This document shows, one piece after another, positions 447 through 5,362 of a stretch of DNA of 5,362 nt. The position numbers and the translations under genes were made by a program. Position 1 is the first letter of the stretch. Every line of letters begins with the position of its first letter. This stretch comes from Candidatus Tectimicrobiota bacterium (GTDB lineage: Bacteria; JACPSX01), in NCBI GenBank assembly GCA_016193065.1, contig JACPSX010000212.1, forward strand, positions 1-5,362. The letters are read 5' to 3'. Below the pieces are notes generated by a model that was not told the origin of the DNA, ran no database searches, and was given only the letters and a program-made list of their open reading frames with translations.

Positions 447-1577
447 TCAGCGGCGCGCCCGCATCCAGTTCCAAAAGCCGCTGGGACGGGTGGCGATGCC
501 GTGGATGTCCGAGTTCTCGCCCTCGGCGCGCACCTTGGCCACTACTCGCCACGTTTGCGTGTCCAACACGGCGAAGCCGCTCTCGCTTCCCGCCACCACG
601 TGCGGATCGCCCGTGACCGGCTTGCCCCGCCGGCTGACGAAGGCGTAGCGGCCGCTGGGGCTCAAGTCAAACAGGTCCGGACGGCTCCCTACCGGCACCG
701 TGCGCAGGCGCTCGTGCGTCCGGGCGTCCAGCACATCCACCGAGTCCCCCTGGCGCACCGCCAGCAGGATGTACTTCCCGTCCGGGGTCGGCATGAAGCC
801 GTGGCCGTCCTTCCCGCTGGGCTGAATCTTCCTCACAATCTGGCCCGTCTTTGCATCGGCTACGGTGAACTGGGTGGGGGAACTGGCGTAGAGCCAGCGC
901 TCGTCATAGCTGGGCACGACGGCGCACCCGTCCCGACCGATGGGCTGGATCACTTTGGTCACGTGGCCCCCCTTGGCGTCCACCACGGTGACGGTGCCAG
1001 CCTGGTCCGGGGGCGCGTTTGCGGGCCCGCCGGTGACCACCCAGAAGGTGCTATCGTCCCGGGACCAGAAAGCGCACGACGGGCGGGGATCAGTGGGAAT
1101 GGTCCGGCCCTTCGTATAGGTGTCCCCCTGCGCCACGACCTCGACGAGGTTGTTATCCCCCACGTTGGCCACCCAGATCCGGGAGCCATCCCACGAGGGG
1201 GTGGCCGCGTGGGCCGTGCGGCCGGTGGGGATTCGTGTGACCACCTTCCTTTGCTCCGCGTCCACCACGAACATGCCGCCAGCGCGCACCCCGGCCACGT
1301 AGGCCCGCTTGTAGCCCGGGCCGAACAGGAGGATATGGGGCGCCACCGTAGGCTGCGGGCCCGGCGGCGCCAGGATGATCTCGCCCGACTTACTGATCCG
1401 CACCTCCCCGTCCCCTTCGGTCGCCGTGTAAATAATGACCTTGTCGTACCCTTGATCAGGGATCCAGACCTCGTAGCTCTTCGGGGCGCCGACGCCGTAG
1501 CCTCCCAGGCCGGCGCACGCCGTCACCAGAGCCGCCGCAGCCACCGCCAACACCACCCCCCACACCCAGCTATGCAT
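447..1577 (-). CDS. lipoprotein with YVTN-type beta-propeller
   Basis: A predicted exported lipoprotein of 376 residues. The N-terminus has a short hydrophobic signal (residues about 5-20) ending in a lipobox, L-V-T-A-Cys21. From about residue 85 there are repeated propeller blades of the YVTN/cytochrome d1-like type: KRAYVAGVRAGGMFVVD (90-106), SRIWVANVGDNNLVEV (132-147), WLYASSPTQFTVAD (228-241), KYILLAVRQGDSVDVLD (268-284) and RYAFVSRRG (310-318). Each is followed by a K/R-V-x-x-I/V strand. No CxxCH haem motif is present. ATG 1577 is preferred over an in-frame ATG at 1634 because it has AGGAGG 7 nt upstream, gives a clean signal peptide, and does not overlap the end of the DsrE gene. It is the last gene of the operon, 22 nt after the DsrE stop. 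The substrate or partner is unknown. A long + strand frame across 501-1598 is its antisense shadow. Confidence 0.85.
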   Translation of the reverse strand: MHSWVWGVVLAVAAAALVTACAGLGGYGVGAPKSYEVWIPDQGYDKVIIYTATEGDGEVRISKSGEIILAPPGPQPTVAPHILLFGPGYKRAYVAGVRAGGMFVVDAEQRKVVTRIPTGRTAHAATPSWDGSRIWVANVGDNNLVEVVAQGDTYTKGRTIPTDPRPSCAFWSRDDSTFWVVTGGPANAPPDQAGTVTVVDAKGGHVTKVIQPIGRDGCAVVPSYDERWLYASSPTQFTVADAKTGQIVRKIQPSGKDGHGFMPTPDGKYILLAVRQGDSVDVLDARTHERLRTVPVGSRPDLFDLSPSGRYAFVSRRGKPVTGDPHVVAGSESGFAVLDTQTWRVVAKVRAEGENSDIHGIATRPSGFWNWMRARR

Positions 1578-1599: not shown

Positions 1600-2175
1600 T
1601 TAAATGAACATGGACACCTTGGCGCTTGCTGCATAGTCCAGGAAGGCCGCGGCGCCCGCGCACTGCACTCCGTCGATTAGCTCGGCTTGGCTGATGCCCA
1701 TCAGCCCCATCGTGGTTGTTCAGGCAAAGAGCGAGACCTTCAACTCCTTCGCGATATCCATCAGCTCGGGGATCGTGGGGAGCTTCGCCCGGGCAATCCA
1801 CGTCTTCATCATCGTCGTGGCCATGGCCGTCATCCCCGGCAGCGCTCCCACGAGGTTCGGGACCTTCATCCAGGGCAGAGACTGGAGCGGCGGCGGCATT
1901 GCCGGGTTTCCCACCGGTCCCACCTTGAGCTTCCCGATGCGGTCCCGGTGCAGGATGTCCATGCCGTAAAAGGTGAAAAAGACGCCCACCTCCCAGCCCA
2001 GGCTGCCGGCCGTGGTGGCCAGGATCAAGGGCGGGTAGGCCATGTCCAGCGTCCCTTTGGAAGCCACGAGAGCCATTCGGCTCGGCCGGCTGTCCCTGTC
2101 GGCGAGATCCTTGAACCGGCGGGCCACAACCTCGTCTACCCTCTGCTCGATGTACTGCTCCAATTCCGGGTTCAT
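1600..2175 (-). CDS. DsrE-family protein, predicted selenoprotein (Sec152)
   Basis: A 191-residue DsrE/DsrF-like (DsrE2-type) protein; the family accepts and relays persulfide sulfur, often from TusA. Residues 33-70 match the family core (RMALVASKGTLD, then VGVFFTFYG). The section up to 151 has the usual Met-rich linker and PELMDIAKELKVSLFA. The next codon, TGA at 1722-1720, occupies the site of the conserved family Cys. The frame then continues TTTMGLMGISQAELIDGV and AGAAAFLDYA, which is typical DsrE C-terminus, to a TAA at 1602-1600. I read the TGA as selenocysteine because it replaces the functional Cys, is followed by a SECIS-like hairpin, and both flanks are conserved. The alternative is a nonsense mutation yielding an inactive 151-residue product. 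The start ATG 2175 has a GAGAGGGG Shine-Dalgarno and begins the family-like N-terminus; an upstream in-frame start at 2403 would overlap tusA and lacks homology. The gene lies 35 nt after tusA. A second Cys is at residue 172. Confidence 0.85.
1689..1706 (-). promoter_or_regulatory. bacterial SECIS-like hairpin
   Basis: Read on the minus strand, GGCTGAT-GGGC-ATCAGCC forms a perfect 7-bp stem with a 4-nt loop inside the coding sequence. The stem starts 14 nt, and the loop 21 nt, after the UGA. This falls within the known spacing for bacterial SECIS elements, and the loop begins with G as expected. The RNA would bind SelB and deliver selenocysteyl-tRNA at the UGA. Extra pairing of the two Gs before the stem with Cs at about 1685-1684 is possible across a bulge. 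I judged the fold by eye and did not calculate it. Confidence 0.75.
1720..1722 (-). other. in-frame UGA, predicted selenocysteine codon
   Basis: This is codon 152 of the DsrE-family gene, between SLFA and TTTMGLMGI. Family members end this strand with Ala-Cys followed by a small, Met-containing helix start, so the UGA sits where Cys is expected. Recoding is inferred; the genes for Sec insertion (selA, selB, selC, selD) are not in the window. Confidence 0.8.
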
Positions 2176-2210: not shown

Positions 2211-2450
2211 TCACTTGTTCCGGCGCACGTAAAACGTGAAGACGCCGCCGGCCTCGTGGCTGGCCACCAGTTCTTGCCCGGTCTGCCTGGTCCACGCCTG
2301 CATGTCCGCCGGCGAGCCCGGGTCCGTGGCCTGCATCTCCAGAATCTGCCCCACCTGGATGGTTTGAATCGCCCTGGCGATCTTGATGACCGGCCCGGGG
2401 CACAGATCCCCCCTACAGTCCAGCACCGCGTCCGCCTTAACCGCGTCCAT
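2211..2450 (-). CDS. TusA-family sulfur carrier protein
   Basis: A 79-residue member of the TusA/SirA/YedF family, small cytoplasmic proteins that carry a persulfide on a conserved Cys and hand it to partners such as DsrE-type proteins. Family signatures are the opening strand AVLDCRGDLCPGPVIK with the CPxP motif at Cys17-Pro18-Gly19-Pro20 (Cys17 being the sulfur-carrying residue), a helix ending IQVGQILEM, the ATDPGSPADM turn, and the terminal strand GGVFTFYVRR. The length is normal for a complete stand-alone member. The extra Cys12, replacing the more usual Ala in the LDxRG motif, is slightly unusual. The start ATG 2450 has GAGGGGG just upstream. It is the first gene of the operon, with its own promoter at 2604-2576 and the DsrE-family gene 35 nt downstream. 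The TusA-DsrE2 pairing is established in sulfur-oxidising bacteria. Confidence 0.92.
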   Translation of the reverse strand: MDAVKADAVLDCRGDLCPGPVIKIARAIQTIQVGQILEMQATDPGSPADMQAWTRQTGQELVASHEAGGVFTFYVRRNK

Positions 2451-4601: not shown

Positions 4602-5362
4602 ATGCTCAATAACCCCTTCTCGCCAATGGCTGAGATCGTTCTAGACAAAAGCTATCTGGACGGCGCACCTACCAGTTCTGTCCTGGCGCTTTGTGATCGG
4701 TTCGAGGTACTTCTGTCGGACGAACTCTTCTTTGAGATGATGACGACCGCGCCCCACAGTCAAAAGCGGTGCTTCTCTAAACTGCCCAACCGCGAGAATC
4801 CGGTGGGGCTCATTCCAAACGCTGGTTTTTTGCTGCGTTTCGAGAGAGAAAATCAACGCCAGTGCACTCCCCTTCGCCAGCATCGCTTCAACGATCGCTA
4901 CATCTTCAACCAAAAGCTCCGGAAGGGTAGCTTTGTCTTCGAGGGTGAGGTGCTTGAGAACTTAAACAGATGGCGCTCTCAGGTTGAGGGTGACACAAAG
5001 AAGTTCGTCGACCGATGGCTGGTTGTGCATCAGTTCTTCCCCGAGCTCAATGGCATCGAGTGGAGGGACTTCCCGGCCGCAATCACAAAAGTTCGTCAGA
5101 AGATTGCTCTGGACTATGACTTCGTCCGTGGACTCTACGCCTCTCTATTGCACGAGGACGCACCGCCACACGCGCCGGCTCCTGCCACAGTCGGCCCTCC
5201 TTGGGCTTGGTTCCGCTGGGTCCAATGTCAGGTGCTTGCGGCTCTGCGTATTTTCGAACGGTACGGGGGCCGTCTCCCGCAGAACCCCGGTCCCGAATTC
5301 TGGCGAAAGGCGGAGCATTCCATGCTGGACGTCTACTACGTAATACTGGGCACCCTCGCAGG
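4602..5362 (+). CDS. putative PIN-like nuclease, partial (runs off window)
   Basis: The frame is open from ATG 4602 to the window end, giving 253 residues with no stop, so the C-terminus is missing. The N-terminus reads AEIVLDKSYLDGAP (10-23), then a strand and helix VLLSDELFFEMMTT (36-49). The last visible segment is MLDVYYVILGTLA (241-253). An Asp at the end of strand 1 (Asp15), an acidic residue in the following helix (Glu45), and a C-terminal Asp in a helix leading into a G-T-L-A strand (Asp243) are the layout of PIN-fold ribonucleases, in which a further Asp usually follows shortly. The middle contains KLPNRENPVGLIPN (60-73). The fold is my inference. Such proteins occur as toxins or in defence loci, but no antitoxin is visible here. 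M9 (ATG 4626) is an alternative start; neither start has a Shine-Dalgarno. The DNA appears less GC-rich than the rest of the window. Confidence 0.75.
   Translation, partial: MLNNPFSPMAEIVLDKSYLDGAPTSSVLALCDRFEVLLSDELFFEMMTTAPHSQKRCFSKLPNRENPVGLIPNAGFLLRFERENQRQCTPLRQHRFNDRYIFNQKLRKGSFVFEGEVLENLNRWRSQVEGDTKKFVDRWLVVHQFFPELNGIEWRDFPAAITKVRQKIALDYDFVRGLYASLLHEDAPPHAPAPATVGPPWAWFRWVQCQVLAALRIFERYGGRLPQNPGPEFWRKAEHSMLDVYYVILGTLA

Follow-up and report, generated by a model that had tools for sequence, protein, structure and literature searches.

From their family, proteins of the DsrE2 subfamily are expected to carry a persulfide on a Cys residue. In relays of the DsrE family, thiosulfate or sulfur is bound by a Cys and exchanged with TusA; this has been shown for DsrE3A with TusA but not for DsrE2B, and DsrE2-tusA pairs are associated with sulfur metabolism of the Hdr or Dsr type (PMC4175335). 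Selenocysteine (Sec) has also been described in the superfamily: lists of selenoproteins have included a "DsrE-like" type since 2005 (2 sequences, Pfam02635, with a UXXC motif; PMC1088965), one was reported in Desulfovibrio vulgaris (PMC1794560), and a 2026 inventory holds, among the 119 families or subfamilies of its Table 1, a single DsrE-like entry, PF02635 with UxxC (PMC13188914). The same Table 1 has neither a PF13686 entry nor a UTTT-type DsrE entry. In the inventory, proteins that differ in their Sec motif are assigned to separate subfamilies (PMC13188914), and by this criterion a PF13686 protein with UTTT would be a new one. For one Methylomirabilota genome, to which the inventory also refers, 63 selenoproteins have been predicted (Deng et al. 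2026, Cell Rep 45:116760), and the gene described here may already be part of a supplementary list.

The window, that is, the whole stretch of 5,362 nucleotides that was analysed, contains a gene predicted to encode such a protein, within a conserved cluster of three genes:

1600 to 2175, minus strand: predicted dsrE2 selenoprotein gene, 191 codons (2175-1603) with a single in-frame TGA, stop codon TAA at 1602-1600
1720 to 1722, minus strand: in-frame UGA, codon 152, predicted to be read as Sec from the Cys column, the codon counts, the downstream dN/dS and the structure model
1660 to 1662, minus strand: Cys172, which may pair with Sec152; 14 of the 91 homologues have Cys here
2211 to 2450, minus strand: tusA, 79 amino acids with a CPGP motif (PF01206, E 5.8e-20), first gene of the conserved cluster, with TGA as its normal stop
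447 to 1577, minus strand: seven-bladed-propeller-type protein (YVTN/lactonase-like) with a signal-like N-terminal segment, third gene of the conserved cluster

Reading of the frame confirmed what had been noticed from the letters alone, namely that the TGA at 1722-1720 is codon 152 and that 39 sense codons separate it from a TAA, with the ATG of the next gene, at 1577, exactly 22 nt past this stop. The purine-rich GAGAGGGG lies just ahead of the dsrE2 ATG, and the propeller gene has an SD-like GGAGGGGG of its own ahead of its ATG. Truncation at residue 151 had also been foreseen: under translation table 11 the frame ends at 1720, and standard annotation therefore loses the reactive residue. 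The motif at the TGA site is U-T-T-T, with no second Cys three residues on.

Our explanation, to which we assign a probability of roughly 0.85, is that a Sec-containing DsrE2 is decoded at UGA152 from the gene between tusA and the propeller gene, and relays sulfur with TusA. Taken separately, the incorporation of Sec at residue 152 appears close to certain from the sequence evidence, while the relay role, which we infer from the family and the neighbouring genes, is somewhat favoured. We thus consider the product, with high confidence, to be a selenoprotein that represents a new subfamily or variant. It shares with the described "DsrE-like" selenoproteins (Sargasso Sea AACY01486889; Desulfovibrio vulgaris; WP_014524487.1) Sec in the DsrE superfamily, the existence of Cys homologues and a bacterial SECIS element, here a candidate (PMC1088965, PMC1794560, PMC13188914), and is set apart from them by description, theirs being PF02635 with UxxC and that of the window PF13686 with UTTT. 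The sequence-only reading had mentioned that DsrE-like selenoproteins appear in surveys; they do, but the published type is not the one found here. With this protein, the sulfur-carrier superfamily would contribute its DsrE2 branch to the bacterial Sec proteins, and because Sec would stand in a persulfide or thiosulfate carrier, not an oxidoreductase, what a selenol gains in the transfer of sulfur atoms becomes testable.

The family assignment was obtained from profile searches of the read-through product. It matched DrsE_2 (PF13686) in the Pfam search with an E-value of 1.2e-42 over residues 33-190, a span that includes the TGA, and its score of 145.9 covered the whole domain, against a Pfam gathering threshold of 25 bits. 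NCBIfam NF047629 (sulfur carrier protein DsrE2) was matched over positions 5-159 of 159 at 167.1 bits, below the curated cut-off of 210 bits. By these profiles the product is a member of the wider DsrE2/PF13686 family, outside the curated equivalog NF047629; of the earlier assignment to DsrE and DsrF, the superfamily was retained and the generic DsrE/DsrF membership was replaced by DsrE2. The AlphaFold model (pLDDT 88.5) has the DsrE fold, and among solved structures it is best matched by 2qs7 (SSO1126), with 3pnx and 3mc3 also among the best matches, and in each of the three a Cys aligns with residue 152. In the model, this residue closes the strand 148-152 and precedes the helix 153-159. SSO1126 is a DsrE2B in the naming of PMC4175335. 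In common with known DsrE2 proteins (PF13686 / NF047629; 2qs7 SSO1126, 3pnx), therefore, are the whole-length match, the fold, the invariant Cys column and the tusA neighbour, whereas the protein of the window differs in having Sec for Cys, a sub-cut-off NF047629 score and a longer N-terminal helix (residues 3-29).

Relatives were found by scanning 84,980 species genomes, and the codon at the site was then read directly. At the residue-152 column, the 91 aligned homologues (88 of them different, as the rows include a few duplicates of one genome reached twice) had TGC in 57 cases, TGT in 32 and TGA in 2. The expectation that the TGA falls on a conserved Cys site was thereby borne out, with 89 of the 91 codons being TGC or TGT, and the Cys column was invariant in alignments of five and of 41 rows, in which TGA was entered as Cys. 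The second TGA copy (locus L035) belongs to an independent Methylomirabilota genome; its protein is 79% identical and has TGA at the same codon. Because a second genome has this TGA, a base-call error at TGA152 is very unlikely on sequence grounds. A broad sampling of 386 genomes yielded 82 matches to the DsrE2 profile, spread over 70 genomes, and the only internal stop in the total was that of the window, the other 81 matches having none. Similarly, among 95 Methylomirabilota genomes the dsrE2 TGA occurred in the L035 genome only, with no internal stop in the other dsrE2 copies. As judged from the alignments, chance is excluded as the origin of the in-frame TGA.

The comparison of the window with L035 also gave estimates of selection. 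dS was ~0.85 before the TGA and ~0.98 after it, close to saturation; the TGA was thus retained across a divergence (dS near 1) that nearly saturated the synonymous sites. In the 39 codons after the TGA, dN was 0.09 and dN/dS 0.09, against a dN/dS of 0.18 upstream, and when equally many differences were placed at random, none of 10,000 trials gave so few amino-acid changes in these codons. The substitution pattern downstream of the TGA is that of strong purifying selection, and both the in-frame UGA and the coding sequence that follows it are conserved in an independent genome. The gene could in principle be a pseudogene or a sequencing error, in which mutation or base-calling turned TGC or TGT into TGA and the C-terminal part is untranslated; a single base change from TGC would be enough, and the assembly is fragmented (294 contigs). 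We consider this very improbable, and rejected it, given the TGA of L035, the downstream dN/dS, the lack of a second lesion in both the window and L035, the 81 stop-free family matches, and the selB and Sec-type selD genes of the host.

A search for Sec machinery, proposed in the sequence-only reading, found a partial set in the window's own genome and a fuller one in the L035 genome, and none of the findings named in that reading as contradicting a selenoprotein was obtained. The window's assembly is 86% complete, and in it selB scored 370.6 bits against a cut-off of 242.25; it is on contig C175 and starts ~270 bases from the contig end, and a SelA C-terminus was not readable in these ~270 bases. 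Two full-length selD genes (L032 on contig C175 and L033 on contig C120), both over the cut-off, have TGA exactly at the SelD active (Sec) site, in the contexts GAG-U-GCKI and CAG-U-AGKL, which indicates that the genome uses TGA as Sec elsewhere. Neither selA nor a gene for tRNA-Sec, both likewise proposed for the search, turned up in the 294 contigs of this assembly (86% complete), which counts against Sec decoding: the RF01852 matches of the genome that were run through ARAGORN were Trp, Ser, Leu and other ordinary tRNAs, a search with the tRNA-Sec of the L035 genome returned fragments only, and no Rfam family was matched by the window or by the two sel contigs. The L035 genome has two tRNA-Sec genes (77 bits, with ARAGORN in agreement), selA (581 bits) and selB. 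Its two tRNA-Sec genes have equal scores and lie at the end of G059:C287 and on G059:C314, as a duplicate or an assembly overlap. Regarding the surroundings of the selD genes in the window's genome, one is beside TIGR04553/PhnC/PhnE-like genes (a putative selenate ABC transporter) and the other beside a TauE/SafE exporter gene. The substrate-binding gene of the putative transporter (L032:5422-5458) seems to be split into the frames 4970-5458 and 5422-5748, with a frameshift in the assembly or in the gene.

The missing selA and tRNA-Sec would also suit a UGA decoded as an amino acid other than Sec, through genome-wide reassignment or a suppressor tRNA. Four genes of the window, however, namely tusA, the propeller gene and those for an amidohydrolase and a methyltransferase, end in TGA, so UGA is still a stop here and reassignment of the code was ruled out. 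In addition, every other homologue has Cys at the aligned position, and the selD genes of the genome carry TGA where Sec is classically found. Decoding as another amino acid is, on these grounds, very improbable.

Downstream of the UGA, a hairpin could serve in Sec insertion:

1689 to 1706, minus strand: candidate bacterial SECIS hairpin GGCUGAU-GGGC-AUCAGCC, 7 bp, which fits the bacterial consensus

Its apical loop begins 20 nt past the UGA, with G first in the loop, and all 18 of its bases recur unchanged in L035 and L133, the latter a homologue with TGC (G061:C151:1322-1894). The spacing, the loop G and this letter-for-letter identity speak for a SECIS element. Against it, 5.7% of synonymous re-draws gave an equally good hairpin, which is not significant alone, and the Cys homologues L139, L136, L135 and L134 have hairpins that are equal or stronger; in dinucleotide shuffles, the window, L035 and L133 had z values from -1.2 to 0.3. 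The hairpin is weak by itself and is counted as consistent with a SECIS, and we regard it as rather unlikely that it is none, with Sec inserted by another or no obvious element.

L133 is 77% identical to the protein of the window and retains the same gene order, and selB is still present in its genome. In the maximum-likelihood tree, the window, L035 and L133 formed a firm trio (100/99) adjoining Cys-bearing copies of the Rokubacteria type, and inside it the window grouped with L133 (96/79). The sequences suggest an ancestor with Sec and a reversion of L133 to Cys, in which case the hairpin of L133 is possibly a fossil SECIS. Alternatively, Sec would have been gained separately in the window and L035; because the tree places the window with L133 inside the trio, two changes are needed either way, and the two histories have equal cost. 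Cys172 was found in all three close copies and in all Methylomirabilota-type copies aligned. With predicted Sec in L035 and Cys in L133, the same gene order and selB in both genomes, these loci form a close natural pair for testing the effect of the selenol.

In the preferred explanation, SelB and Sec-tRNA(Sec) would decode UGA152, aided by the hairpin just downstream, and Sec would be placed where a strand of the DsrE fold ends and a helix starts, the position of the invariant Cys in homologues. The selenol would stand in for the thiol of Cys: it would accept sulfur or thiosulfate and hand the group on with TusA. Compared with a thiol, it would have a lower pKa and allow easier release or reduction, and Cys172 could form a resolving Se-S bond with Sec152. 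The gene context is compatible with such a role, as tusA lies 35 nt upstream of dsrE2 and TusA is adjacent in 62 of the 89 DsrE2 loci checked. L035 and a third genome (G061, propeller gene 84% identical) share the tusA-dsrE2-propeller order, and counterparts of the propeller gene, 83-84% identical, occupy the same place in L035 and L160. Because dsrA, dsrB, dsrC and dsrM are present in the window's genome, the host has dissimilatory sulfur metabolism, and the relay would probably feed this Dsr pathway (dsrAB, dsrC, dsrM). The closest described arrangement is the DsrE3A-DsrE2B-TusA set of Metallosphaera cuprina, which shares neighbourhood and family and in which thiosulfate goes from DsrE3A to TusA (PMC4175335). 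Its proteins have Cys, however, and the window has no DsrE3A gene beside dsrE2. The DsrE2B of that set was inactive, with no sulfur transfer in biochemical tests (PMC4175335), which counts against a relay role.

TusA and DsrE are also the domain pair of YedF (TIGR03527), a fusion of TusA-like and DsrE-like parts that has been linked to SelD (PMC5322559). By analogy, the Sec-DsrE2/TusA pair could handle selenium instead of sulfur, carrying Se to SelD or detoxifying it. Here the two domains are encoded by adjacent genes, in genomes that have SelD, and YedF models match the TusA of the window, albeit weakly. On the other hand, most DsrE2-tusA pairs across phyla have Cys and such pairs are tied to Hdr/Dsr (PMC4175335), and here the pair adjoins no sel gene. 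YedF itself is fused, with a PF02635-type DsrE domain that has Cys in CGxC where the window has UTTT in a separate gene. Selenium handling in place of sulfur is therefore unlikely. A selenium-dependent chalcogen relay, in which Sec152 and TusA are joined in a mixed Se-S intermediate or Sec152 itself carries Se to SelD, is a tentative idea that we hold at less than even odds; if true, dissimilatory sulfur trafficking or selenium delivery in the lineage would depend on selenium supply, and L133, its hairpin a relic, would have reverted naturally from Sec to Cys.

A few additional observations were made on the genome and the contig. dsrA, dsrB, dsrC and dsrM form one cluster (L167, contig C9) with genes for a cobB-like amidase and a DsrL-like NAD(P) oxidoreductase, and the 82-residue protein encoded after dsrB has a DsrD-like look without a family match. 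The G+C content of the window's contig, 61.6%, lies at the upper end of the values in the other contigs checked (57.7-61.5%), and this check gave no sign of mixing that would suggest a horizontal or mis-binned origin. At the contig end, positions 4602-5360 hold an open-ended frame of 253 residues without a Pfam or NCBIfam match. Positions 180-421 contain a C-terminal piece of pdxA (PF04166) that lacks a start and lies beside ~180 bases without a clear gene, and is either truncated or rearranged.
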